Shown here piece by piece: positions 5,001 through 58,029 of a DNA stretch of 64,000 nucleotides. The stretch comes from Pocillopora verrucosa (Eukaryota; Cnidaria; Anthozoa; Scleractinia; Pocilloporidae). The translations under genes and the position numbers were made by a program. Position 1 is the first letter of the stretch. Each line of letters opens with the position of its first letter. The DNA is taken from contig NC_089313.1 of assembly GCF_036669915.1 (NCBI RefSeq), positions 12,876,440-12,940,439 of the forward strand, in the 5' to 3' direction. The notes beneath the pieces were generated by a model that was not told where the DNA came from, ran no database searches, and worked only from the letters and a program-made list of their open reading frames with translations.

Positions 5001-8000
5001 CCATGTCTGGTGAAGACGCCTCGGTTTCCTCTCGTCCAACCATGAGCCTCTTGGGGCTCCTGGGAGGAAAATTGTCTCCAAATCCGAGAGTGACTTTCGT
5101 TCCTGTCGAGATAATCAAGGCATCAGGGTGAACGGTCTCTCAGCAGCTCACATCCAGTAGTTGTAAAAAATTGCTTACTATTCACACATAAGGAAGGAAA
5201 TAATGATAATCCCTCTTTGTAAATTTTTCTTAGTATGACATAGACCCCATTACTAAAAAGGTAGAAATCTAAATTTATTTTTCATGCTGTTACCACTTTT
5301 CACGCGCTTATGCAGATTGCTTGGTTTCTGATTGGTAGATGTGATTACCTTGGTTTTGGTTCCACGCCACTCCATCGAAAATCACTCTAACACGTAATGT
5401 TTACCTTGACTAACAACAGCAGGTTTCTCTCCATTCTTAGTCGCGTTTGGTGAATTCCTCCCGAGTAGAAACATATTCTCGCTCGTTTTTGGCGAACACG
5501 ACCCAACAGTAAAAAGACCCTTCAAGGGCTTCATCTTATTGTCAGGATCAACTGTGGGATCGCTGGCCTCCGTACTATGGGATGTCTTTGTCGGCGAGCC
5601 TGGTATGGTAGGAAGTCCGGTAGGAGAGGATGAAATAGGTGGACTCTTTCCTCTCAGGGGGGTGAATCCACCACCTGAATTCCGACGGAACACGGGAGAT
5701 GTTCCTGCAGCCCCTAGTTGGAACCCTGTTGATGCCAACAAGCTTCCCTTCCTTGGAAGGCCCATTGCTAGTATGGCCGGCGAGCTGTGCACGCGTATGA
5801 TCTGCTTGGTCTCTGCTCCTGGCTCAGAGAGGTCTGTTATTGGGACACCCATTCCTGACCTTGAATGACGAGCCAGAGCTGTCAATATTGACGAGCTGTC
5901 CGGTGACTGAGTAACCAAAGGTTCAATATTGGAGAGAGCTCTTCGGAAAGTCCCAACTGCTGCACCCCGTGCCAGCCCCTTATCAGCATTCGTGTTAGAA
6001 AATCCTGCAAAAGCTTGCTGGTGCAAGCCCACGGTCATCTCAGACCGTGCTTGCGCACTTAAAGCTTGAGCAGCAGCAGTGAGAGGGATAGAAGATCCCT
6101 TGGGGCTAACCTGCGCTGCTTGTCTCTGTGTTGCTGGACTGTTTTTTCGGCTGCTGCCACTTTTCAATGCACTTGGGCTACTATTTGGGCTCTTGCCTAC
6201 TAACGGTTTAGAGGACGGGGTGCCTGTCTGCTTTCTAGGAGTCATGCCTGAACTGGCTCCGTGGTGAGTAGGAGATGGGGAGGTTCGAGAGGGTGCCTGT
6301 TTGGGTACACTTCCACTGCGTGGAATAGGCAGAGGAGAGGATGATAGCTGACCCTTTGGTGTAGGTCCTGGAGAGGCACTTGTGCGCTTTCTTATTGTGA
6401 TTTCAACTGGAGGGGAATCTGCAGATGATGGAGATGACAATGGGGAAAGAGCAGGCGGGGCCTGTACCAGTGGTGAAGATGGGGAGACTGGGGATGCTGA
6501 CTGTGGCGAACCCACCATAAAGGTGGCTCTCTGAGGAGTGCGTGATGATGGAGGAGAAGGAGACTGTGGACTGCTGACAGTCCTTGGAGGTGATTGGCTA
6601 TGGAAAAGGAAGAAATTACAGTATCATTTTAATAGATCCTAACTAAATCTGCAGAACTAATGAGAAAGAATATTTACCCGTAGAAAGGAAACAGCGGATC
6701 AGAATGATGCCTCTGCTGATGATATCCTGGAGACAAATTGAAATTCATCTTATAACATCCTTCTACCAACAAGATAAAAATATCAATTCTCCCTCTTTCC
6801 GCCATACATTTCTACTAGTCTAAGCTCTGAGAATTCAGTTTTAAACCAAACAAACTTCCCATATTTATAATTTCATTTCTTCTCGGCACCTTTCTGCTTG
6901 ACAGTGTATGAATAGTTTAAGGGGAAACTAAAATTATTAGCTTGATGATTCATTCTTGTCGAGTACAGTTCTTCACTTATATGTGAAGGTTAAGCAAGTC
7001 TTAATTTTTTTAAATCTAATTTTATCTTGATAATTGTTTTTACTACTTAAACTAAGACCAGAAAAAATAAAGTCATCAAAGCAGATATTAAGACTTGTTC
7101 TTTAAAAAAAATCTTAAGTGTGATGGTGATAACTAAAACCTCTAAATGGACAGCGTAATAAAAACGAAAGGTTTAGAATCATGTTCTGTTTGGTTGTAAC
7201 TTGACTGTGAAAATGATGGAGTCAGGCAAATGTTTTTGTTATAATAAAGTTACAACTTCACATCTAAAATTATCCTAATTACAGAATTATGTGTATGTTG
7301 CATTGCAGTTTAGATTAAGAAGACCATAGCAATGATTTTGTCAAGGTATACATGTAGCTTCAGACGTATTCTATACAAACAAATATGAATACTCACTTGG
7401 AGTTTCTGGATTAGATGGGACCAGCACAAAACCCTAATTGATAAGGTTGAATTTTATACTGATTAGAATTAATAAGAAACAAATTCCTCAAGGAGGGGGA
7501 AGGAATAATAATTGAAGTCTCAGGCTGAAAAGGGGTAGTCTCTTATACAGAGTATCTGAAATAGGGCATGGTTTATCTACTCTTCTCTGTTATTTACAGC
7601 CATTTTATCTTATAAACTACGGGGTTATACAAGGATTTCTAGCCCTGCGAAAAGCCTTAACAACACACGTGAAAAAATATCGTATTTTTCCACGTGTGTT
7701 TGATATCGCCAATCAGCTGCTGACACGTCATGCGCCTTTCGCGCCACTCGGTCGGGTTGATGAATGAACGGCAAAGCCTTCACGATTCTCAATACAGAGT
7801 CATTTGACGTAATTTTTTCCGGATCATGGCTGCTAAAACACTGAAAAATCCGTATCGCTTACAGACAGTGACATTCAAACTTTCCTAGAAAGGGAGGAAA
7901 CCAAATTACGGAAAGAAAAACCGAAAGTTACGTATTCGATGGCTTTGGTAATGGACAACTGGAAGATTTACCACAGTCCGACTTTGGCCGTGTACCTGAA

Positions 8001-11000
8001 AGACTTCTTCTGTTGGTAAGGACCAAGTCAATAACTGAGAGTTTTGTACATTGAAAATTATGCCAATGGTTTGATTTTGTGGTGTTCCAACGCATTTTTT
8101 CATGTTGAGCCTTAGCGTCAACACACTTTATCTTGTGCACTGGATTAACATGCAGGCTAGCTAAATGGCAAGTCAGCATTAAGTACTCTCAAACAAACCT
8201 CAGCAGCTAGCTCATCATCTTGCACTGCATTTGGAGGGTAGGCACCTTGAGAACTAAGCTGTGCACCTGAGTCTTGAAATAAACAAACAAAAAAAGGATA
8301 AAATATAAGCAATAAATATAAACTTTCCAATTCCAGTTTTGACAATTTAGCACTTCTAAACCCTGCATAGCATACCTCCAGGTACACAATCATTACCAGG
8401 AAATTTGCAAGTCATTGCATTTTCACTGAAACAATCCACTGAGTGGAACACATCACAACTATAACAGGGTAATTTATTATTAGAGTGATTGGATGAAGGG
8501 CTAACGATCAATCTGTCAGCTTCTAAACTCTTTACGGTGGCCAATTTATGTTATCAACTCAGTTGACAATACTTAATTACCTTGTTGTACTCTCCCACCA
8601 ATGCAGCACCACAATTTCTACAGAAACTTATCTCCTTTATTTACATCACAACTATACCTTGCAGCACTAAGACAGCCAATAGGCCTCTACAAAAATTCAT
8701 TATTTGCAGAATTTTTGCCTGTGCAGTTTGAAGTTTGTACAACAACATCCAGAGCTTGGCATGCTAAACATTATGCTATCATATATCCTCTTTATATCTA
8801 TCATTATTCATTAATTAATATATAAAAATTCAAAGCCTTTCCCAAAACTTACTGTTTGCAGAGGTGCTGATATTCATAATTGTGGGAGGGTCCTGAGGGG
8901 AAATGCCTGTGCCATCATAGGGTGGAGTGATGCGATGAAGAAGATCAACTCTTATGTCACCCAAAGCTTCTGCACCAAAGTTCTATTGAATTGAATTCAG
9001 AGAATAAAAAAGAAAAAAAAAACCGTAAGGGCACTAACAGGTGACTTTATATGACTTATAAAATGAGGAGAGAAAATTGTTCAAAATTATGGACTGGATT
9101 AAAGTGTTAGTTATTTTGACATTCTTACACTGCATATCCAACTGGCTAACCATGTTTTCACATTACATGTAAGTGATTGTCACAGTAGTTTCTTGCCAAG
9201 AAATAGATTTGTAACATTAGCAGAAAAATCTAGTGTTTAAAAGTATGTCTCTTGCCCAGGTAGTTGGTACATATACATGTAGGTTGCTTTACACTGTTTC
9301 CCACATAAATCCTGGTTCTAGGGGTTAGGTGTCCCTAAAAAAACTTGAAGTCTATCTACTACATGTTGAGAAAAACTCATCCTGTGAACATTGGAGCTGA
9401 GTCCATAGGGAAATTGACTAGTTTGATGGCCTTCCTTTTCTAAACAGCTATTTAGGCTATGCACTAGCTCCTCCACATTAACAAACAATGTTACAGTAAT
9501 GTTAATGATGATGGCACACTTACTGGGGAATAGGAAGGTGACCTTGTTCCATGAGAACTGCCAGAGTATTTACGCTGAGGAACTGGAACAGCAACTGGGG
9601 TAGCTACATACATGTGGAAAGATATTAAAAAATCAAATGTTAAAACAATTTCAAAAGTTATCCAATTCTTTTAAAAGTTGTCCATGGACATTTCCAGGAT
9701 AGGGATAGTTTATGAGTCTAAAACATCAAAAATGTTAATATTTTTAATAAATTATTTCTGCCATTTAAATCTTAGGTTAAACTACAGTTGTAGGTCTCTT
9801 TTACATTTACAAAGTCAATTATATTTCTAGAGGGATTACCGTCAACATAATGAAAGTTTTCACAGACAGGTGTACATGTATAAATTTCTTTCTAAAACAA
9901 ACATCTCACTCAATTATTTTACTTTCTTTGTTCCAGTTAACTGCCTACAGCTGTATTTGCCTATATTAACACTATTAGTAAGATACATGTAGGTTTTTGC
10001 TTACATGCACGATGGGGAACTCTGCCAGTCAAGAAAGGATGTGCAAAGAATTCACCTGTAAACAGAAAAATAAGTTGATATATATTTAATAATCACTGCC
10101 CTGATGGGTGCTTGATACACAAGTTAATGATGGTATATTTAAACAATAAACACATTAAGGGTGCCATATCAACTTGAAATTGTACAATCCTCAAACAATC
10201 CCTCCCTCCCTTCCTGCTGAAAGTTACCCTGTGAAAGCCTCCTACAAAAATGCTGCATTTCTTTGGAAAACAAATGTACATGTAGATGTATTATGTGCCC
10301 AGAATGAAACTTTGTCTAACACAGCCTTGGAAACTCGCTTTCTTAAAAATAAATTTTCAGCTCAAAATGGTTCTGACCTCTTCTCTCATCTGTGCTCAGC
10401 CTTGTTCTCAGATTATCAACAGCAGCAGTAACTCATTTTATAAACTTAGAGTTATTGATTGCACATGAGTAAATAGAAAGATTTGTGGTTAAATTAGACA
10501 ACACCAGCCTCAATCTACCTCAAACAATTCACCTTCAATCTTTGTGTTTTTTAACAGACTTCTCAGTAAATTAAACAAAGATATAAAAACTATTTACCAA
10601 AATCCAGCCTGTCACGAGGATTCCTTTTTAATAATCCAATAAGTAGGTCTTTCAAGTGGTTTGAAGTACCAGCTGGTATACTGAGGTAACAAAAAACAGT
10701 TGTTTACTATTCGTGGATAAAATAAGACTCAGTATTGATAAAGCATGAAATAAATATGATATTCTACTAGTACAGTAATCAGATTGTATCTGACAAACAA
10801 GCAGGCACAGACTGAAGTACTAGATCAAGATATACAAAGAATTGAAATATTGTTAGCTTGCCATTTTGCCACTCACTTTGGAGAAACAGATTTGCTCTTT
10901 TCATAAAACTTCTTTAACTGCTGAGGGCTGTTTGCCTGGAAAATGACAAAATTAGAAAAAATCATTGATATTATATAACATCGATAAAGTTTGTCACAAT

Positions 11001-45600: not shown

Positions 45601-46103
45601 TTTTTGGTATCTGTGTGGTATATACTAAAACTTTCAGTTATTCAGCTCCACTCGGTATATAATTGTATATATGGGTTCACAACAAAATCATGCCAAAGCA
45701 AAAGAACATACCTTTCTCAGCTTCTTCCTTTTTGCCCCTAAACATATCCCAGTAGGCTGAACCTGGAGCAGTTTCTCTGAAATCGATGACTGTGGATTTC
45801 TTTAATGTTTGATTGTACAGTAACATCACTCCCCCACCTCCTATTCCTGATGAGTGCATGCTGACCACACCCAAACAGAACATGGCAGCGATGGCAGCAT
45901 CCACTGCAGAACCGTTAACGTTTAGGATGTCTTTTCCGATTTTGGAACACTCCTGTGTATCCGTGGCAACGGCTCCTATTTTATAGGGTCCGCCAAATGA
46001 TTTATCGCGACGATGTACGAGCCCAATTACGAGCCCAATTACTATTATACACAATAATATGACGCCGATTATTATTTTACCACACCTACTGCATGCCCTG
46101 TTC
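39659..46103 (-). CDS. GGT: gamma-glutamyltransferase / glutathione hydrolase (GGT-2), first exon not found
   Basis: Cell-surface glutathione-cleaving enzyme. Exons (high-low): 46103-45712, 44746-44545, 43509-43205, 42804-42668, 41487-41297, 40578-40338, 39931-39659; all phases agree and no stop interrupts. The 46103 exon opens with a 20-residue hydrophobic anchor rich in Ile/Val, then DKSFGG and a FRETAP block. The exon at 41297-41487 holds the autocleavage site GTTHVAV with the usual His. Later motifs are NNEMADF, PLSNMCPTI, GASGG and a C-terminal GEPAGQ. Compared with human GGT1, the serine pair that binds the gamma-glutamyl carboxylate is Ser-Asn, and EMDDF is EMADF. No ATG is in frame in the 46103 exon, and its TTTCTAG acceptor implies an upstream coding exon that I could not identify. 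Confidence 0.88.
40800..41249. mobile_element. insertion specific to unit A, with a 106-codon ORF
   Basis: The matching intron in unit B (57090-57362) lacks this segment, while both flanks align. On the minus strand, 41121-40801 encodes a 106-codon ORF with no domain I recognise. There are no obvious terminal repeats. Confidence 0.5.
42062..42200 (+). repeat. dispersed repeat (same family as 8480-8660)
   Basis: Contains TATCAACTGAGTTGATAA, AAATTGGCCAC and AAGAGTTTCTAAAGCTGA. It is also present in unit B at 58765-58915, so the insertion predates the duplication. Confidence 0.6.
42994..43086. repeat. G19 and C13 homopolymer runs
   Basis: G19 at 42994-43012 and C13 at 43074-43086 flank an about 60-base spacer in a GGT-2 intron. 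The spacer motif ATCATAAGAATGTTA recurs in variant form at 46513, 59992 and 62750, so this belongs to a G/C-run repeat family. Confidence 0.6.
43715..44010 (+). mobile_element. relic related to 7615-8055
   Basis: Shares the ACAAGGATTT, GATGAATGAAC and CCGAAAGTTA blocks with the ULK-intron copy. Its plus strand reads LVMAFLAAENENRQL and LKDLPQAAFGRIPEQ, consistent with a decayed repetitive gene. The matching intron in unit B keeps only the first bases, which suggests a later deletion there. Confidence 0.45.
44213..44298. repeat. imperfect palindrome, hairpin-type repeat
   Basis: Left arm with GGAATTTCTCTTCTCG and right arm with CGAAGAGAAATTC pair over about 38 bases with mismatches. It lies in a GGT-2 intron and is absent from unit B. 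Confidence 0.55.
44985..45395. mobile_element. dispersed about 400-bp repeat inserted in unit A
   Basis: Shares GCATGCAGGAAGCGG, TCCTGGAAAAG and GCACGCTCTTTCAA blocks with the segment at 58030-58640, in opposite orientation and in a different intron. Unit B has no copy at this position, so the two insertions are independent. Confidence 0.6.
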
Positions 46104-48207
46104 CTAGAAAAAATAAATGAAGATTAGGTTACATGTATATGATCGTTTTTGACTCGTTCAGGATCTTTTAAATTATCTCAGTAAGAAAAAAAAATTACGT
46201 TTGCGGCTAAAAAATTATGTATAAATAGATCCCTACGATCCTGGTTAAAGTTGCAACATAAAATCTTTAATTTAACTATTTCTGTTGACAGGTTACTAAG
46301 TCCATCTTTAGATTCCTTTCCATAGGGACCAGTAATTATTTACCGCCTGTCGAGAGGGGGGGGGGGGAAAGGGAGATTAGAGGATTCTTGCGAGGGAGGA
46401 CATGGTTTTCGGGGGGAAAGGGAGGGGGTCAGTCGTCATCAACAGAGAATAAAGGGGGAATATAGAACATCGACTGCCAATCACAATAACTACAAATAAG
46501 GGGAGGGGAGGGGGGAATCGTAAGAATATCACAGAGCCATACGGAGGATTAGGTAAACTTCATCGTAAACCAAACTAAACCTCAACCCTCCCTTCCCCTT
46601 CCCTCCTCCCCCTCTGGACTATAAATAATGACGTCGAACGGTCCGTTATTGAACCTTTTCCAAGAGAGAGAAAATTTTGCATTATCGACAAAACTGTAAC
46701 ACACTGAGTGGCGGAAAATCCATGAGAACAAGAGAACTTTCATATTGGGTACATTGTCTCTACATCACTTCTAACTTTCATAGAAAGTAAACAAACAAAT
46801 GGTCATGGGGAAACCGAAAATGTTCCGGCTTACCTTAGTATATAGTTACCTTGGGAAATGGGATCCAATTCGCAAGGTTTTTTTTTGGGAAACTCAGTGA
46901 AGAATTTACAATAATTAAAAGTAACTGTAAAGTATATATGTGTGATGTTTTTGAAACGACCCTTTCAACTTTATAGCGAATTCCAGCATTGTTAGATACA
47001 GCAAAATTAAAATCAAACTTATCAGATGACGTGAATTGACATCCAATCGTTATACCGTCTGAAACTAAAGTTCATATTTCCTTGCTACAACTTTAGAATT
47101 CATGCCTTCAAAATCGTGCTTTTGTAACTCAACATCAGATCTCGTTCCAGTAAATGCTCAGAAAGCGGAGAACAATGATTCCTTGCTAATGCATCGTGTT
47201 ATTGATTATCTTGTGCGTCTACGTCACCATATCACTTAGATACGTTAGATTATATTTGTAACTGGTGAAGATCTTGCCGAAATTAAGTTACACTAATATG
47301 TTTAACTGTAGTACCTCGTATAATAAATTCACAAAGTTGCCGTTTTTATAGGAACCATCGAACATTTCAGCCGAGATTGTTTCTTAAAACCACTGTTTAC
47401 CGTTTTTTCGGTCTCGGATGTCTTATCAGACGTTTTGTGTGTTCACTGATAGATTATTGGAGTGGCGTGTTAATTATAACCAGTCTTCCAAATACAACCT
47501 ACGATCTGCATTCAAATTTCCGAGAAATAATTAATTATATCTCTACCAAGATCGAACCAGAAAGTATTCTGGAGCGAATATTTTCAGAGTTTCTCTTTTG
47601 TTGAATATGATATATTTCCCTGTTTATATGACAGCATGTTGATAATTGTGCAGAGCGGTAAACCGTATCTTAAAAACCTTCCTTAACTCAGGTTAACGTT
47701 ACATATGTTCACTACTAACAACTGCAAATCAATATTATACAGAGAGAGGCAAACTTTTCTCACTTTAAGCTCTTCCACGTGCACTTCCCGTCTTCTCGAT
47801 CTAAACCTTCATATTTGGCCGCCATTACTATTCGTGTTGTCAACTGAACCTTGACATATCAAACTTACGTTTAACATCTGCCTCTGTAGATTTTCGTGAC
47901 ATGTCACGCAGTCTAAGGTCAGTCAAAAACACGCTAATTTTCGAACATTTTCCTCTTTTTCGTGTTTCTAAAACTAACGTACATAAGCTTTCTATACCAC
48001 TGCATTTGAAGGCAATCATTAAAATATTTCGTTCGGGTTTTTGAGACTTATGGTTAGCGATTCAGACATGTCGAAGAGGGGTTCACGCCACATGCAAGCA
48101 GTGGCCATGGTGTCTGGGGCTATAACTTTAAAGCGCATGCCTATAACTGGTCATTACCGCAAAATACGAAAAAAACAATAAATTTGGCGCAATTTGATGT
48201 ATAATAC
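46104..48207. other. GGT-2 upstream region and intergenic sequence
   Basis: The part up to 47513 aligns with 62324-64000 in unit B and must contain the missing first GGT-2 exon and promoter. A conserved stretch with a donor-like GTAACT (minus) at about 46845-46880 is a 5' UTR exon candidate, but its unit B equivalent lacks the GT. A G-rich/C-rich repeat occupies 46350-46620. No gene is visible at 47514-48207. Confidence 0.45.
46350..46620. repeat. G-rich/C-rich dispersed repeat
   Basis: Runs of G at the left and C at the right bracket an AATCGTAAGAATATCACA block. Relatives occur at 42994-43086, 55065-55310 and 62440-62820. Confidence 0.5.
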
Positions 48208-50769
48208 ATGAGGTTTGGATATTGTTTGGGTTCGGGAAATGGGACTCGAAGTTTACGCGCTGGTGATTTTTTCTTCGCTGGCTCTTCTCGCGGTGGCGGT
48301 AGATGCACAAAACGATTTCGGCGAAGAAACAAATGGTCCAAAAGGGGAAAAACTGCCTTGGTTTACTTACGAAATAAACTAGTAAGTAAAAATTGCGCTT
48401 ATCGAAGTGTATTCCGACCTGTTTCTTTTTTCTTTTTAATTTTTTTCAATTTTTTTTTCACCGAACTGATTTTTTTTTAATCAGCTATCTCATATATTCC
48501 CTGTCGAAGAAGTCTGATCAAGAGCCGAACGACGAAAGTGCTGATTCTGTGATTGTGGGAATCATGAAAAAAATTTTGAGGGAATCTGAGATTCGCGGAG
48601 TTGTTATAAATTCCAGAATTCTCAACGTCTTCAGGAAAAAGGATTTCTCTCCTCCACTCAGCGTTCAAGAAAGCGTCAAAGAGTGGGGGGAAAAGTATAA
48701 AGAAGCTTATTGATGCGTGATAGGCAAAAAACTACTCCTTCAAAATTTTCTATCATGAGCTCGAAAACAACTCATTGATTGAGGAAAACCAACAGCTTCG
48801 TGGGCAGAAAAGGAAAGCTGAACTGGATTTAGCCGCAGAGCAGGCAAAGTGATTAAAAATTGAGCAGGAGCTTGAAGATGTTATTAGGGATTCGGAAAAC
48901 AGAAAAGAACATTACAAACAAAAATTCAAAAGATTAGCGAAAAAAGCAGCAAGAACGCAAAAAAAGGGACAAAGAGGTCCAAACAAAAGCAAACGTTTCA
49001 CTGATTATACCAAACAACATCAGGCAAGATTAAGGCGATGATTTAAAGAAGACTACCACTCAGCACTGTCATTTTTAGGCCTCTATAATTTTATTGCCAC
49101 CAAGGTTGAGGTATTTAATAATGACACTCAACAATATGAAACTATTTCATTGGTACAAGAGGGAGAGTTACAATTGGAAACAGAGCCAAGAGAACTGACT
49201 GACAATGATATTGATGACATCAATATGTGGGTTTACTTGAAGGACAAATTCAATATATCAAATGAAGCTTGGCATGAGTTGGCCATGAAGTGTAAAGACA
49301 TGCACACAAAATATAAAATATGCAAACACTTAGATAAGCTCAGTGCCAATTGGAATCTGAGAAGTACACCAGGGGAGGCAGAGAGAGTACAGATTTCTTT
49401 CAGGGAGAGTCTTGAGGAACAGATAAAAAGGCTGCAGAAAAATGGAGTATTGGACAAGGTTACTACTATTAAAGTAAAGCTCAGTGATGATGGTACCAAC
49501 ATTGGGAAAAGGCTTAAACTTGAAAATGTGACATACACAATTTTGAATGAAAAGGATGCAGCAATGAATGAAAAAGGGAACTATGTTCTAGCAATAATTA
49601 AGACAACAGAGAACTATGACAATCTTAAAGAAAGCCTTGCTGATCTAAATAATGAAATGTCAAATTTAAAAGAAATAACTGTAAATAGTCATAAGTATAG
49701 CATTGAGTATTTTTTGGGAGGAGACTGGAAGTTTCTAGCCTGTGTTTGTGGTTTAGGGGCTGTATCTTGTATTTGGTGTAAGTGCCCAAGAAATGAAAGG
49801 TTTGACATCAGTAAAAAGTGGTATATAACTGAAAAATCTCTTGGGGCAAGAGATTTACAAGAAATAGGTAAGTGTGCAAAATATAAGCAATATAATTGTA
49901 AAACTAATCCATTATTTGATTTTATTCCTATACACCATGTAATAATTGATACTCTACATTTATTTTTGAGAATATCTGATAATTTAATTGAACTTCTGAT
50001 CAGGGAACTTCGCAGGAAAGATGCCATTGACAAGGTATCTACTTTTTCAAATGGGTTTTGTCGAAATAAGTATAGACATATGGCTGGGTATGAGAAATTT
50101 GTAAAAGAACTTGGAATTAATTTTGAATGGAAAATTAATAGGGACAGCAAGAAGTTGGAGTACAGAGACCTTACTGGACCTGAGAAACTCTTGCTTTTCC
50201 AACATATCAATTTTCACTTACTATTACCAGAGTTTCATAATGTGGACAAGCTGCAAGCCCTTTGGGATAATTTCATAGATATTATGGGTGATCTTAAACT
50301 TAATTACACTACAGATGATGCTATCTCTAGCCTCAAAGACAAAATCAAAAAATGGTTTCAAAAATTCTTAGACCTTTACCAAGCAAAAGATGTAACACCA
50401 TATATGCATTCTTTGTATGCTCGTGTACCTGAATTTTTAAAGCTCTACCAAAATTTATCTTATTACACTCAGCAAGGTATGGAGAAGTACAATGACACTG
50501 TATCAAAGGACTACTTTAGATCATCTAATCATAGAGGGGTTTCTGCTCTAAAGCAACTTTTCTTGAAAAAACACAGAATACAGCTTTTGGAAGCTGCTGG
50601 TTTGGAAAGGGTGAAGGAAAGTTACAACTGTGGTAACTGTTCAACTTCTGGCCATACCATCAAAACATGTACTGCAAAATGCAGCAAATGCGATGCTCCC
50701 ACTTTCTGTGCACATCTTGTTAAAATAGATGGTAAATGGAGGCCAAGATGTGATTTAATCAATCAGTAA
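48208..50769 (+). pseudogene. RAG1/Transib-like transposase with C-terminal zinc knuckle
   Basis: A 539-codon open frame at 49150-50769 holds the catalytic core. In ORF numbering: Asp113/114 in SDDGT, Asp192 in GGDWKF, zinc pair Cys207/Cys210 (CIWC), IIDTLH at 265-270, His420, and Glu445 in QQGMEKYN. RAG1 has the same order (D600, D708, C727/C730, H937/H942, E962). Spacings agree closely: Cys to first His 210 versus 207, and second His position to Glu 20 in both. The second His position is Arg425 here. A CCHC knuckle (CX2CX4HX4C) lies at 494-507. Upstream in the same frame is a coiled-coil/basic region from 48724, cut by TGA at 48850 and 49039. Further 5' are a 48208-48381 exon ending in GTAAGT and a 48485-48711 segment. 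Other zinc-inserted RNase H transposases (for example KDZ) are the alternative assignment. Confidence 0.72.
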
Positions 50770-51730
50770 TGATATAATATATCAATGTATTAAAGGAGTG
50801 TATTACCCAAAAACTGTTAGTAGAAGTTGTGTAGAATAATTTGCTATGCCTGTGAAATGTTTCTTGTATACAGCATTCAAGGAGTCTTTTTCAAAAATGT
50901 TACTGCATTGATTACAACAGAATCACAGACTGAAATATATGGGTCATTTATAACCACATGTTTACATTTTATGAAGGTAATTCACATGCAAGTAAAATAA
51001 TTCTTTGACATCAACTATCAAAATCAATAAACATGTGCTAAATCAAATATATTAATGATGGACCATACTTTTGTATCCACATCTGTTGCCATCTCCACGG
51101 ACAAATGTAAAAACGAGTTGATGCCCGTCTTCGATTTCAGATCTCACGTATTTATCGCCAATTAATTTAAATTCCACTATGGGGTTTCTTTTTGTCAACC
51201 AAAATCTCACAGTTCCTGGTACAACATAAGCAAAATCGCCGTTTTCATTTATGATCCGCTCATTCTACTTTGTGCCGATATAACAATCCAGAGTTTCATT
51301 TGAAAGAATTTCATATATTAGTTTATTCCTCTGATTTTTTTTGGATGAAATCCTTCCAAGACTTTTATAGAAAACGTCGTCATCGACTTGAATTTCAATA
51401 CGAACTTCTGGATCCTCTGCGCCCGGAGTACAACTTTCGCTTGATCTCCCTATAAACGCGTTCATAAAAAGTTTGCAGGCGATCGCTGAAGGAATCATCG
51501 GTTGGTTTTGACATCGGTTCCAATCGCATTACGGGCAAATTATGTTCATCGCATGGCCTCCATTCGTCAAATTTCTCGCTGTACCCTTTGAAACGAATTT
51601 TGACCATGCTTCTCGCTTTGTCGACCTGTATTATCTCTACAGGATAAATATTCTTATCCGTAGTTTTTATTTTCTTGCATTGCTTGGTCTTAGCTTCTGC
51701 GAATTCGTCAATAAATCTTTTTGGAGTTTT

Positions 51731-51770
51731 CACACTTGGTGCCCGGGCACTAGTACCCGGGCACCGGCAC
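51731..51770 (+). repeat. Harbinger left inverted repeat with subterminal copies
   Basis: The outer TIR is followed at once by further CCCGGGCACC-type palindromic blocks. Nested GTGCCCGGGCAC motifs are likely transposase-binding sites (inference). Confidence 0.75.
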
Positions 51771-51813
51771 AAAATGGTGCTGTGTTCAGACACACGGTAC
51801 CCAGTCTGAAGAT

Positions 51814-54073
51814 ATGTTCACATTCAATAAACAGAGCACACGCTCACTATTGAGAAATTGTTCGAGTCGCAACATGCGTTTGTTCCGTGTTCAGTATATC
51901 TGCTTGCTTACTGTTTTTTATGGCTTTTTTAATTTTGTAATGCTGTGTTTCTACATGAAACATTTAGGAGACACCGCGGATGACGACGACAAGCGAAGAT
52001 TATCTCGGATCGTCACGGAAGTCTGCGCTAGCATTACAAGTAGGTTGAATGTATTCCTTGCAGAAACGAGTGATAGTGGAGGGAGAGCAGCTTGGAAATT
52101 CCCACGAATTCAGAATGTTCTAGAACACGAATTCCTTCATTTTCCTGACAGAAAATGGCTGGAAAGTTATCGTATCTCCAAAGATATGTTTGAACAGTTG
52201 ACGCATGATTTGCGGAGCCTTCAGCGACAGGTAACGAGACTGCGTAGTCCTGTACCTGTACGAACAGTTGTAGCGATGCTACTGAAACGTCTGGGAAAAG
52301 GACTGGACTACAGAGAGATCGGAGACAAATTTGGAGTCGGTGCTTCTACTGCATGCATTAAAGTTAACGAAGCTATGAAACTCCTGGTTAGTTCCAAGAT
52401 GCACATCATAAGCAAAATACAAAGAGGAATAGATTTTAAAAGAATCATAAACGGTTTCCAGAGAAAGTGGAATTTTCCCCAATGTTTGGGTGCCATTGAC
52501 GGTACCCATATACCCATATAAGCCCCCCTCGTCCACCATGCGGACTATTATAACAGGAAATCATATCAAACTCTTTCCCAAGTGCGACGAACATTTGTTT
52601 TTCTCGGTTCCAGGTGTACGCAACCACTAACCCCACGTAATGCGCATGCTCTCCGTTACGAATTTTCAAAATGGTGGACAGGTTAAAGGGGGAAATTAAA
52701 AAACACAAAGCGATTTTGCAATGAATTCTCAACATACACCCTCGTTAGAAAGGCAAATCCACGGAAGAAAGATATAAAACTGTATGATATTGAGATCGAT
52801 ATGATATTAAATCGATACCGAGGGCCCGTTTAATTGCCTTCCGCCACGATTATTAGCTTTCTTGACAGCTTTCTGAAGGCAGAATACTTTCTTTCTGAAG
52901 ACTTCTGATATACGGCTATTGATTATTACACCTCGTATACCTGATTGCTCAAACACTTTGTTTACGATTGTTGAAAGGACCGACTCATGGTTCTCCGTCT
53001 TCGTCGTGACATTGCTTTGAAATAGTATAGACTAGTAAGCTGAAACGAAAAATTAATCAGGGAAGTTTACGAAAAATCCAGCAAACAAGCTTTAAAAAGG
53101 CATTTATTTAGACTACATACTTCAACGAACTTCACAAATCTTACTTGTTTATCTTGTAAGTAAACGATGGCAGATTAATTCCCGAAGCGCTTTCTGAGTT
53201 TCCCTATCCCTCTCCTACTGCTTTCACGCTTACAAAACAGGAAAAATCAAAAGGAGGAAGATACAGCTGTTTTGAAACGCCATTTGACGAAGGTGAATCT
53301 GCTTTTTGTTCAACACTTTACATATCAAAACAAAGGAAATTTGTTCCTCTTTTTGGTTCTGGCGGTACATTTTTAATTTGCGCCTGCGTAAAAGAGATAT
53401 CGCCCGAGACCCTTCGCTCGGTCGTGTTTTGATCAAAAACGCCTTGTTAATTTCACGCAACCGCTCGGAGAAAAGGTAAAAATGACGAGGGAAAAACTTT
53501 ACCTTCAAGTTAGAAAATTAGCGAAATAGAAAGCCACAATATTATAGTTTAATATTTCAGAGGTACATGGAGTGCTTTTTCCGTAGAGAATCCGCACGAT
53601 GGTAAAACATTCGAAAATTACACTCGATTTGAGTGGGGTGTTGAAGTGGGCGTGGTCACTACATTCATGTTAAGACTATTTGTACCCCATAAGTTTGATA
53701 TGGTTTCCATTCAGTTATTTTGCAAGGTGTTTGTGACAGCCAGTGCTGCTTCACTGATGTCTTTGCTGGCTGGCCTGGTCGAGCACACGATTCTAGGGTG
53801 TTTGGGCGTTCTCAGATAGGAAATTTGATAACAGAGGGAAGACTGATTCCTGATGATTCAAATTTGCGACGGGTTATCGATAACCACGTCATTGAGCCAT
53901 TTCTTATTGGGGATCCAGCTTATCTCATTTCCAAGCATCTAATGAAAAACTACCAGTTTAGTGCCCGAGTACAAGGTCGAGACCTTGTACTCGGGCACTG
54001 GCACCGGCACCGTGCCCGAATTCTGGCGTGGGTACCAGGAAAAAAGGTGTGTTCACATTGGTGCCCGGCGTAG
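51814..54073 (+). pseudogene. HARBI1: HARBI1-type Harbinger transposase, defective
   Basis: The first part (51814-52572) has an N-terminal hydrophobic stretch. A helix-turn-helix-like region (VRTVVAMLLKRLGKG, then YREIGDKFGVGAST) is followed by the first catalytic Asp in LGAIDGTHIPI and a TAA at 52519; after it the frame still reads HADYYNRKSY. The second part resumes at about 53711 after a TTCAG acceptor: ILQGVCDSQCC, FTDVFAGWPGRAHDSRVF with the second Asp, and FLIGDPAY. It runs into the right terminal repeat near 53970. The third catalytic acid, normally in an ENAFG motif, is missing. The stop and truncation make it inactive. Confidence 0.8.
52807..53240 (-). pseudogene. antisense copy of the two-exon N-terminal module of the RAG1-like gene
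   Basis: On the minus strand, an exon-like piece (about 53240-53145) reads SSRRGIGKLRKRF, a stop, then AIVYLQDK before GTAAGA. It matches SSRGGG, TKRF and ALVYLRNK before GTAAGT in the 48208-48381 exon. After a TTTCAG acceptor, 53039-52807 contains IRGVIINSRISEVFRKK, against IRGVVINSRILNVFRKK at 48595-48645. A frameshift separates the exon start from this block. It sits in the gap between the two HARBI1 pieces. Confidence 0.65.
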
Positions 54074-54090
54074 AATAGAACCCGGGCACA

Positions 54091-54119
54091 GTGCCCGGGC
54101 ACCAAGTGTGAACACTGCC
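54091..54119 (-). repeat. Harbinger right inverted repeat
   Basis: Exact complement of the left terminal 20-mer. A second, diverged copy of the terminus (GTGTTCACATTGGTGCCCGG) lies just inside at 54049-54068. Confidence 0.8.
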
Positions 54120-54151
54120 TTACGCTCCCGCTTCACTCTGTTAGCCGCCAT

Positions 54152-56043
54152 TTTTAACATTGGCGCCCTTTACATATTTAATTGCCCTGCGCATGTCAGG
54201 TGAGTAATACGTAGGCTTGGGACCAATTTAAGCAAATGTTCAGTTTTCTATAGGATAAGTTTGATATGGGGAACTGTGATAGTCGAACTCGACTCTCAGG
54301 AAAATGTTGGCTTCGGAATATGAATCTTTTTTGTGCTCTTGTAGTAATATCTCTCAATATCCAATCCCTTACAATGTTTAATTGACCTTTTGTACCCAGC
54401 TTTTCAGTCCCCAAGATCTGATTTTAAAGGGAGCGCTAACGTAGAAGTGTTCTGCGAGTGTTTTGAATGAAAATTGAGACTTTAAATTTCGCATACCTTA
54501 AACGTTCAGGAGCAAAAGGTCAAGTTTTTCTTTAGTAACCGCGATAAACACGATATCTGACCACAACACGTTTAGCTTGAGGCGTATTTTCAGTTTATTT
54601 TATCATTCGGTGGAACATCCAATAAGGCCACCTCTTCATAAAAGTCATAAGAGGCATCTCACTACATCAACCTTTTTTTTGGCTCATCGAACGGTCGTCT
54701 ATCTACGCTTATGTAAACTTTCTAAGCAAACCAAAGTGCGCCTTGGCAACCAAAACAATCACGGACAAAAGACCATTGTAATAAAATGCGCGACAACTCA
54801 CTCAAGCAGATAATTCTTGACATTTCTTTTCTGTGTAAGAGTAATACAAAAGCAAATCAGAACGTTGCGTAAATTGAAGCATGCGTAGTAACTGCACCTT
54901 TCTCATTTATTTTTGTCAACCTTTTTCTTCTGAGCTTGTGGCTTAGTTTGTTAATTTTTTTTTTACATAAATGTCACGTAAAAATGCCTAAGATGCCACA
55001 GTTTCTTCAGTGTTAAAAATGTTTTTCATGGCGTATTAACAATGCATACGCTAGGAACGCTCATTATTCCTCCAGGCGGGAGGGGATCGTAGGATTATGG
55101 TTGTGTCTCAATGAAATTTGCCCGATCCCCCCTTAAGGCTTTGTGTTATTCTCATGATCCCCCTTATTAGCAGTCACTTTTTTATGCTCACCCCCCTTTA
55201 TACTCTATTAGCGACGACTGATCTCCCCTCCCTTCCCCCCCTGAGAACCATGTGATCCCCGAAGTCCTCCTACCCCTCCCCCGCCAGGCGATAAATAACA
55301 ACTGCTCCCTTAGGAAACTTGAGATTTGTAGTCTTCTTCAACGCGCACTGTTAACGAAGCTGCACTAAACCCCTCTTCGAGTACACGGTAAAAAGGTTAA
55401 TATTTCCCGATAGCAGCAAGTAATGGGCTCCTGTCGATAGCCAGTTTAGGCCAACATTAGTGGAAATGACATGAGTATATTGGAAACATGGAAACAGGTG
55501 TGGAGTGTGATGATTCTTTGAGATGCTCTCGATTGACTCTCTTCTATGCGAACTTCTCAAAAATTGCATGGAACGGGTGAATCTTAAAGAGTCTTTTTGC
55601 TCCTGTATTATATTGTTTGAAGATGAACTATTCTGTAATCAAACCTTACTCAGTGTACTGCTTTCCATGGTGTGCTTTGCATTCTGAAGTAGGTAGAATG
55701 AAGTAGGTAGGTAACCGCCCTTACAGAGAGGAACAAGAAATACTACATTTGCCTTCAGAAATTACTGAGTTTTTACCCACCAGCTACAAGCAATGATATT
55801 GTTAAAATCCTTCCTTGAATCACTGTGTTATGCAGAGACACTGGTGGAGTCTAAAAATAATCTCGATATGGCTATTAATATTCGAAGCAATGCGAAGTTT
55901 ATTTTGCTAACACTTATCTATTTTAAATTATATAATAAGCTCAGTTATGCACGCATTCTGATTGGTTCTCAGTTATGATCTATTGGAAGACAGACCTATA
56001 GATGACGTCATCTTTAAAACTTTTTAAAATTCTTTATTATATA
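54152..56043. other. intergenic, no gene recognised
   Basis: Presumed 5' flank of the Tudor-knot gene (its start is 54151) and sequence up to the duplicated unit B. Short ORFs only. It includes the G/C-rich repeat at 55065-55310. Confidence 0.45.
55065..55310. repeat. G-rich/C-rich dispersed repeat
   Basis: Several GATCCCCC/CCCCTCCC runs with a GGCGGGAGGGGATCGTAGGA start and a CGCCAGGCGATAAATAAC-like end, resembling the other G/C-run repeats in the window. Confidence 0.45.
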
Positions 56044-56232: not shown

Positions 56233-58029
56233 AATAGTTCAGTTATCCAGTTAATTGGGCCAATCACATTCCGCACTTCTATTGACCCGCGGGTGCACCA
56301 TGCTTTCTCGGGTCAGACTTGGCGTATATTCCTCCAGGTTCCCTGGAAATCGCCTGCACCACAGCAAACAAATCACTGCCAGTGATGTTGTGACCTCGTT
56401 GTGCTAAGCCTTCTATTACGTACTTGTCGATGCGATAGTCCTTATTATTTTCATAAAATACTCTCTGATCAGGCACCATTTGTGAGTGCAATCGAGGTTT
56501 GTTTACCGCCTTAGACAAGTCATCTCCAAACCAGAGTTTGTTCATTAAGACCTGCAGGTGCAAAAATAATTATAAGCTTCCTTGCTTTCAATATTTACCA
56601 CAGAGGCGGTGTGAATCTGCCCTGGAGATGGAGGGACGGATTAATTGACTACAGACTTCGACCCACTGAAAAAAGAGTTTGTTTCTAAACTCTCAATACC
56701 CTCAATACCCTTGATACAGTGTGAACCCCCATTGAAACATCCTGATTACGCCCCTAATGGGGTTCAATATATAGCCCACAGAATGCTTATCAGCTTAGCT
56801 ATAAAATCTTAAGAGTCAAGGAATTTTGAATGAAACGATTGGACGTATCAGTGATACAGCTGTGGTTATCCTTTTCCCGCCAGAAGCACCAATAACAAGC
56901 TGAACTTTTCCGTCGTTATCAGTTAAAATGGTGGGACACATGGAAGAGAACGGTCGCTTGCCTGGCCGAGGCCGATTGAATGGTGAAGGAGAAATATCAC
57001 CCACTACTTCGTAATCAGGAATATCAAAATCTGCCATCTCATTGTTGTAAATGATGCCTGTGGTAGTGGATCGGTACTTAGCACCGAACCTATTATTAAA
57101 CACAAAAACAGTTCACGGTATCACTAGAATGCAATGCAACTAGTGGTAAGTTTTGTCAGTTTCCTCTCTTTTTTTCTGGGTCCATCCTTCACGAACATTT
57201 ATGAGCTGCCTCATTGCGATAAAAAGATGGGGTTAAGTTAGTATCCTGTGTCAAATTTATTGCTGTCATAACATTGTGCGAAAAGTTTATCGTGAGGCTT
57301 CATTTTTTAAAAAATCTCAGGTTTAAGCCCGCTTGTCCAATATTGATTGGTTCTAAACTCACCTCATGTTGATAGTAGATGTCACCGAAACTGCGTCTCC
57401 ATCTGAGGCCAGAACAGCCACGTGGGTAGTACCGTAATCAGCGTTCGAAAAGAAGTCCGCGTAATAGCTTACATCTTTGTGGGTCTTATCATCCCATATT
57501 TTGTTACGTAGGCGATTGCCTGTTTTTGGCTCCAACATCTGTGATGCTCTCCACTGAAATATCACCAAATTTGCAAAATATTCAGCTAATGTTCTGGTGA
57601 TTCTGACTCAACTTTGTTGTGCGAATTTTGAATAAGATAATTCGCAACTGCTGCCAATTGTCTTCGAAAGTTGCTCCCATTCGCTCAACCAACCAGGCAA
57701 AGCTTAATCAAGGGCGAACCTCATCGTCCCCGGACAAAATGTAATCAGGTTTGGTCACCCTGGTTTTCCCGCGTGAGGTCGGCCACATTCGTTAACACAG
57801 AGTTATCACTGGCTCCTTTTAATTCTTGTTTTTCCATTTGCCTTTTTAATGGCTCGTTTTAAAATAGCGTTCACTTATCTTGCTGGAAGGTAACATGCGC
57901 CTTATTGCAGCAAAATGAAGTAAATTTAAATACATTTTTCAATCTGGAGTTGGTTTCTTTTGAGAGTCTGAGTGCGCAATTCGGACTCCAGTTAAGAGAT
58001 TACTATCTTGTGTGATCGCTAACAACAAA

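Follow-up and report, generated by a model that had tools for sequence, protein, structure and literature searches.

A RAG1-type transposon family in the coral Pocillopora verrucosa, probably carrying a convergent chromatin-reader gene

In a 64,000-nucleotide stretch of the coral Pocillopora verrucosa (contig NC_089313.1, positions 12,876,440 to 12,940,439; hereafter the window), a gene resembling RAG1 (gene 1) lies tail to tail with a gene for a small putative chromatin reader (gene 2), an arrangement that raises the question of whether the two form one mobile element. The best explanation, to which we assign a probability of about 0.8 as a whole, is a lineage of cut-and-paste DNA transposons of about 3.7-4.9 kb that would carry two convergent genes, one for a DDE transposase of RAG1 type and one for a small chromatin-reader protein, whose reader domain would be Tudor/MBT-like in one clade and a chromodomain in a sister clade. 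Read from the sequences, the case consists of mobility, terminal inverted repeats starting 5'-CAT, conserved catalytic residues, a predicted RAG1-type fold and pairing of the two genes in both clades.

A sequence-only reading of the window had recognized in gene 1 the RAG1 order Asp, Asp, CxxC, IDxLH, His, Glu. This order was conserved in an alignment of 60 members of the window transposase family (A1), where both catalytic Asp residues, the CxxC pair and the Asp of IDxLH are present in 60/60 rows, the His pair in 52/52 (8 gapped) and the Glu in 50/51 (9 gapped). The family profile retrieved RAG1 first from the PDB (E 1.7e-5), and for this reason we regard the match as above chance. When the transposase model was submitted to Foldseek, the top 49 matches were all RAG1, RAG1L or Transib and the 50th had an E value of 0.54; identity to RAG1 in the structure alignments was 12-16%. 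The predicted core is an RNase H fold in surroundings like those of RAG1. Pfam RAG1 matched 8 of the 60 members, at best with E 6.8e-7. All but one of the RAG1/RAG1L Foldseek matches shown align only from residue 243-251 onward; upstream, where the nonamer-binding domain and N-terminal zinc fingers would be expected, the model has a small helical part and a long helix in place of the RAG1 N-terminal region. We consider it very improbable that gene 1 encodes a member of some other RNase H superfamily (P element, hAT, KDZ) whose likeness to RAG1 is convergent: in both profile and fold comparisons, P element, hAT and bacterial DDE folds aligned less well with the core than RAG1 and Transib did, no KDZ model or structure being among the results. 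A whole-genome search with PF12940 gave no match, and since 14 control genomes were equally silent it is uninformative. Pattern searches for relatives in viral contigs and prokaryote genomes returned 85 and 42 stretches, respectively, none of them confirmed as a relative.

Mobility was evident in two copies, L009 on contig C13 and L010 on contig C6, which are 99.85% identical over 4069 bp; BLASTN of the 9.9 kb fetched around each found no similarity beyond this stretch. Both carry CATATCAAACTTA at the two ends in inverted orientation. Aligning copies, a check proposed in the sequence-only reading, yielded terminal inverted repeats of 13 bp, and the repeated unit spans the reader gene up to the terminal repeat instead of ending before it. 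Inverted termini were found at 14 of the 25 loci read (10 in the clade of the window, hereafter the Tudor clade, and 4 in the sister clade), and these 14 elements start with CATAT, CATGG or CATTA, i.e. with 5'-CA; the remaining 11 were left out either as a duplicate (L014, of L013) or for decayed or missing ends (L015, L018-L023, L027, L031, L034). Certain copies are segmental duplicates (L013/L014, and L021/L022 with a common left flank), as expected if segmental duplication had spread what is simply a pair of host genes. We give that explanation hardly any weight, because no similarity between L009 and L010 was found outside their inverted termini and because a paralogous site without the element exists for L009; for the L009 insertion, the terminus-bounded copies and the empty site together rule it out.

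Next, we counted how often the two genes occur together. The counts cover one genome, the window's own assembly (353 Mb, 52 contigs), in which 85 transposase matches fell into 61 loci and 73 partner matches into 56; locus numbers are lower bounds, the best 76 of 228 transposase candidates having been scored, and include segmental duplicates. A convergent downstream partner lay within 4 kb at 46 of the 61 transposase loci, a partner on the same strand at one, and none within 8 kb at 14. With a chance expectation of about 0.0025 per locus, chance adjacency was rejected, and the two proteins do co-occur elsewhere in this genome in convergent orientation, as had been conjectured from the window, rather than being usually unlinked. 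Six of the 14 loci without a partner belong to the sister clade, one has a partner match at 8.2 kb and most others are fragments; conversely, there are nine partner loci that no transposase in the count has as its nearest neighbour within 8 kb. At least three transposase/partner pairs of database proteins come from contigs of matching size (3721, 4406 and 1830837 bases), which suggests linkage elsewhere and hints at pairing in other cnidarians.

Selection was estimated within the window clade from nonsynonymous (pN) and synonymous (pS) differences, with silent sites close to saturation, so that the ratios are approximate. Gene 1 exon 2 gave pN 0.23 vs pS 0.86 between L009 and L012, gene 2 gave 0.34-0.36 vs 0.80-0.85 in three pairs between subfamilies, and exon 1 gave 0.34-0.49 vs 0.62-0.87 in six such pairs. 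Judged by these differences, exon 1, gene 1 exon 2 and gene 2 all evolve as protein-coding sequence under purifying selection in this clade. Because the linkage is conserved and the genes are under selection, we argue for a joint function of transposase and partner. Together with the termini and the RAG1-type core, the pairing supports the two-gene transposon family proposed from the window, its chromatin-reading role being predicted by analogy, and makes a two-gene RAG1-type transposon highly likely.

To characterize the partner, we collected 78 homologous proteins, two of them named for Stylophora pistillata, another coral. A gene 2 profile built from 42 of the 78 matched the MBT repeats of L3MBTL3 (E 1.8e-10) and the Tudor domain of PHF20 (E 6e-5); chromo-barrel proteins were matched too, more weakly. 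The likeness to L3MBTL and PHF20 concerns the reader domain: the best stretches lie within profile positions 25-110 and leave the C-terminal domain uncovered. The partner model (mean pLDDT, predicted local distance difference test, 74) has a secondary structure consisting of a reader part and an alpha/beta C-terminal part, and no convincing fold relative of the latter was found when it was searched within the whole-protein model. At E <= 0.5 the 42 partner sequences matched 25 Pfam families, Kelch and PHD not among them; one sequence weakly matched a COPA beta-propeller family (E 0.019). Matches to the partner C-terminal domain also lie inside open frames of 3478 codons (C1:24886509-24886790) and 1823 codons (C7:14473650-14474060), possible fusions with host or other-element genes.

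The sister clade, with transposases 29-33% identical to the window's, received full support in a 30-row tree (6 loci plus 24 of 114 proteins, midpoint root). Four of its proteins keep D-x18-CxxC, HxxxxH and GxEK; Cx2Cx3GHx4C was absent from the four tested. At L024, L025, L026 and L028 the convergent neighbour reads as a chromodomain exon followed by a C-terminal-domain exon. An annotated sister-clade partner of P. verrucosa, P0194 ('chromobox protein homolog 8-like'), contains a chromodomain (PF00385, E 3.5e-17, 62.5 bits vs a cut-off of 25.1) whose nearest relatives are CDYL2, LHP1, HP1 and CBX, with the best stretches ending within the first 90 residues, and has aromatic residues at what we take to be the positions of the methyl-lysine cage; at other loci of the clade the chromodomain is known from search rows or reading by eye. 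Counted by the C-terminal domain, 17 of 25 loci have a convergent partner within 4 kb, two have one at 4.8 and 9.7 kb, and six have none (34 of 57 transposase rows after window-clade rows were dropped, from the best 55 of 364 candidates scored, and 32 of 105 partner rows). When the remaining 73 partner rows were rechecked, every one within 12 kb of a sister-clade transposase was convergent, as holds for all 105 rows, and chromodomain-exon matches appeared at 10 of the 25 loci, including C4:3353983, which had earlier been counted among those with none; adding L024 and L028, read by eye, brings the figure to 12. The terminal repeats, CATGGCCAGAAAT and variants, are unlike those of the window clade. 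At L027 a Ty3/gypsy-like element (about 7208-9901) sits where the partner chromodomain exon would be expected, and a chromodomain-exon match lies about 4.8 kb past the C-terminal exon, at C5:15346626. Two weak matches below cut-off were also seen in transposases of this clade, one to a SAP domain (L028, residues 889-918, E 0.0054) and one to DUF1280 (L026, residues 373-467, E 0.00027); the DUF1280 family may hide a RAG1-type transposase.

Several observations weigh against a RAG1-type transposon with a dedicated reader. Pfam gave no match for the window transposase itself, nor any RAG1 match at E <= 0.01 for four sister-clade transposases, and for one of these the best PDB match, RAG1, reached no better than E 0.099. 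At 15 of 61 loci in the window search and at 8 of 25 in the sister clade there was no convergent partner within 4 kb, many of these loci being fragments, and the locus C3:12352579-12354304 covers nearly the whole query without a partner. Foldseek with the partner model returned no match at E <= 0.001. Finally, the partner C-terminal domains of the two clades are colinear end to end, but 19 of 200 shuffles reach the observed score; the alignment is not significant and lends homology of these domains no support.

How might such a pair work? By homology with RAG1 and Transib, the transposase would, like RAG, cut at CA/TG ends and attach them to the target. The C-terminal domain of the partner would bind the transposase, while its reader domain would dock on methylated histones and steer where the complex cuts or inserts, like the RAG2 PHD finger; we propose this tethering because of the analogy with that finger and with chromovirus chromodomains. 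On these analogies we lean towards the partner being a chromatin-targeting subunit. Alternatively, it could be an anti-silencing or regulatory factor that would occupy repressive chromatin on the element in competition with silencing proteins of the host, without being a subunit. The sister-clade chromodomain does resemble the HP1, CDYL and Polycomb readers of repressive marks, and no transposase interaction surface is known for the partner, yet the convergent pairing is kept in both clades, as it is in the RAGL elements with a partner subunit described in PMC7204232; by that analogy the anti-silencing role seems unlikely.

We then looked at the insertion sites, since target-site duplications had been expected on aligning copies. 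None of the 14 elements (10 in the window clade, 4 in the sister clade) has a direct repeat of at least 3 bp flanking its termini, and two show a 2-bp match. Sliding the ends by up to 3 bases gave at best 4/5 matches, in 4 of 12 elements, and L018 and L021, whose ends are altered, have no exact 5-bp duplication. The L009 element lies in a tandem repeat array (C13:12.99-13.12 Mb), a source of empty sites. Its empty paralogous site, L038 (the same place as L042), matches the joined flanks at 99.5% identity, and three further empty paralogues, less similar (87-88%), are found at L039, within L038 and beside the element in L009. All empty sites read AAAAG-A-GGATC and the filled site AAAAG-[element]-GGATC, a comparison from which we conclude that insertion at L009 produced no duplication and lost one target base; absence of duplication was seen in all 14 elements, the 1-bp loss at this one site. 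A palindromic duplication hidden inside the termini (ATAT or CATG) is contradicted by the same empty site.

Two modes of insertion would account for the missing duplication: the transposon ends may be joined to the two target strands at almost opposite positions, or they may be sealed in by end joining. A rival account, in which the lack of duplications stems from excised elements being end-joined into breaks, or from subsequent rearrangement, and not from opposed strand transfer by the transposase, is a possibility we hold to be real though the lesser one: 1 bp of target was lost in the only insertion for which an empty site exists, which is compatible with end joining, whereas both ends of the 4069-bp pair are exact. 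Judging larger target deletions elsewhere would take empty sites.

The window copy itself is a damaged member of the family (Table 1). The mobile unit spans 47855-54268 between its 13-bp inverted termini and is 97% identical to L009, with the same ends. Both genes were located where the sequence-only reading had placed them, and the coordinates of gene 2 (ATG at 54149-54151, stop at 51052-51054) confirm the tail-to-tail orientation and the 282-bp gap. Gene 1 is broken by frame changes, stops and the loss of four residues between the second Asp and CxxC, gene 2 by one frame change and one stop, and the reader gene is further interrupted by a 2.4 kb insertion with a DDE_Tnp_4 (Harbinger-type) fragment at about 51731-54118. 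Other genomic copies are free of these breaks in matched frames; L002 and L003 (the places of L009 and L010) have open frames, stop to stop, of 769 codons for gene 1 exon 2 and 268 codons for gene 2. The hydrophobic, signal-peptide-like N-terminus of exon 1, with its acidic linker, is conserved in L009, L012, L013 and L017, i.e. in four subfamilies, with a best 11-residue hydropathy of 2.65-3.15; such a predicted feature is odd for a nuclear transposase. Minus-strand frames on either side of the element (45677-46123 and 56279-57607) resemble gamma-glutamyltranspeptidase exons in their motifs, and the element seems to sit beside or between genes of this kind.

Table 1. Features of the window copy, in positions of the window.
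Feature	Coordinates	Strand	Basis
Left terminal inverted repeat, CATATCAAACTTA	47855..47867	+	Boundary of similarity to other copies
Gene 1 exon 1, coding for a short signal-peptide-like hydrophobic N-terminus and a linker	48239..48381	+	Frame, GTAAGT donor, conserved in four subfamilies, pN < pS
Gene 1 exon 2: damaged copy of the RAG1-like transposase, frame open over 49042-50766	48485..50769	+	
Catalytic Asp 1 codon	49489..49491	+	60/60 in A1
Catalytic Asp 2 codon	49723..49725	+	60/60 in A1; aligns with RAG1 D2 region
CxxC zinc pair after Asp 2; four residues between them lost in this copy	49768..49779	+	60/60 in A1; compared with L002
Catalytic Glu codon in QQGMEK	50482..50484	+	50/51 ungapped A1 rows; aligns with RAG1
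C-terminal Cx2Cx3GHx4C motif	50629..50670	+	45/45 ungapped A1 rows, 15 gapped
Gene 2 main part: predicted Tudor/MBT-type reader domain and C-terminal domain; contains the frame change and stop	51052..51730	-	
Later insertion dividing gene 2: GC-rich inverted ends and DDE_Tnp_4 fragment	51731..54118	+	Ends uncertain by ~3 bases
Gene 2 N-terminal part with start codon	54119..54151	-	
Right terminal inverted repeat	54256..54268	-	Boundary of similarity to other copies

RAG1 and RAG2 are thought to descend from a two-gene transposon, and the reason for the histone reader of RAG2 is debated. The coral elements indicate that a RAG1-plus-chromatin-reader arrangement, its reader function predicted, exists beyond the known RAG1/RAG2 elements. 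If they form a separate ancient lineage in which a reader takes over from RAG2 and insertion leaves no duplication, either nuclease and histone reader were brought together on more than one occasion or the pairing is ancestral and its readers were swapped, and RAG1-type recombination would have chromatin reading as a basic need instead of a refinement added in vertebrates. With the same convergent layout and other kinds of reader in two clades, and with near-identical copies amenable to testing, these elements provide an outgroup against which to ask three things: did chromatin reading come first, is a kelch partner necessary, and how does RAG1-type insertion proceed without a 5-bp duplication? 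Our search of the literature by title and start of abstract, with subscription journals and Repbase outside it, found, among the papers listed, none describing a Tudor or chromodomain partner on a RAG1-type element.

Among known systems, L3MBTL, PHF20, CDYL2 and HP1 are host chromatin proteins, unlike the transposon-borne partners. Chromoviruses (Ty3/gypsy) carry an integrase chromodomain thought to guide insertion and are likewise mobile elements with a chromodomain; they differ in being retrotransposons whose chromodomain is fused to the integrase and is not a separate convergent gene. Transib, as described in PMC7204232 and PMC8355894, has a single gene and 5-bp duplications, and because the coral elements have two genes and no duplication was found we do not assign them to it. 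They share with RAGL/ProtoRAG a RAG1-type transposase, a convergent downstream second gene, terminal repeats, a partner with a predicted chromatin-reading domain and, in the Tudor clade, Cx2Cx3GHx4C after the catalytic core at the same spacing as the invertebrate RAG1L motif (PMC7204232). With one base skipped, and in a register chosen after looking, the terminal repeat of the Tudor clade agrees with the protostome RAGL consensus at 10-11 of 12 positions; for the two sister-clade repeats tested, agreement is limited to 5 and 8 positions. According to PMC7204232, PHD is present in all invertebrate RAG2L except that of amphioxus, and RAG1L-RAG2L pairs are reported in other corals (also PMC9435367). 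The RAGL partner RAG2L has six kelch repeats, whereas neither kelch nor PHD was found in the coral partner; RAGL elements almost always make a 5-bp duplication, whereas none was found here; and a small helical part with a long helix takes the place of the RAG1 N-terminal region. Because of the missing kelch, PHD and duplication we set the coral elements apart from RAGL/ProtoRAG, and we consider it an even bet that they form a separate ancient RAG1-type lineage in which a convergent chromatin reader replaces RAG2 and insertion proceeds without target duplication.
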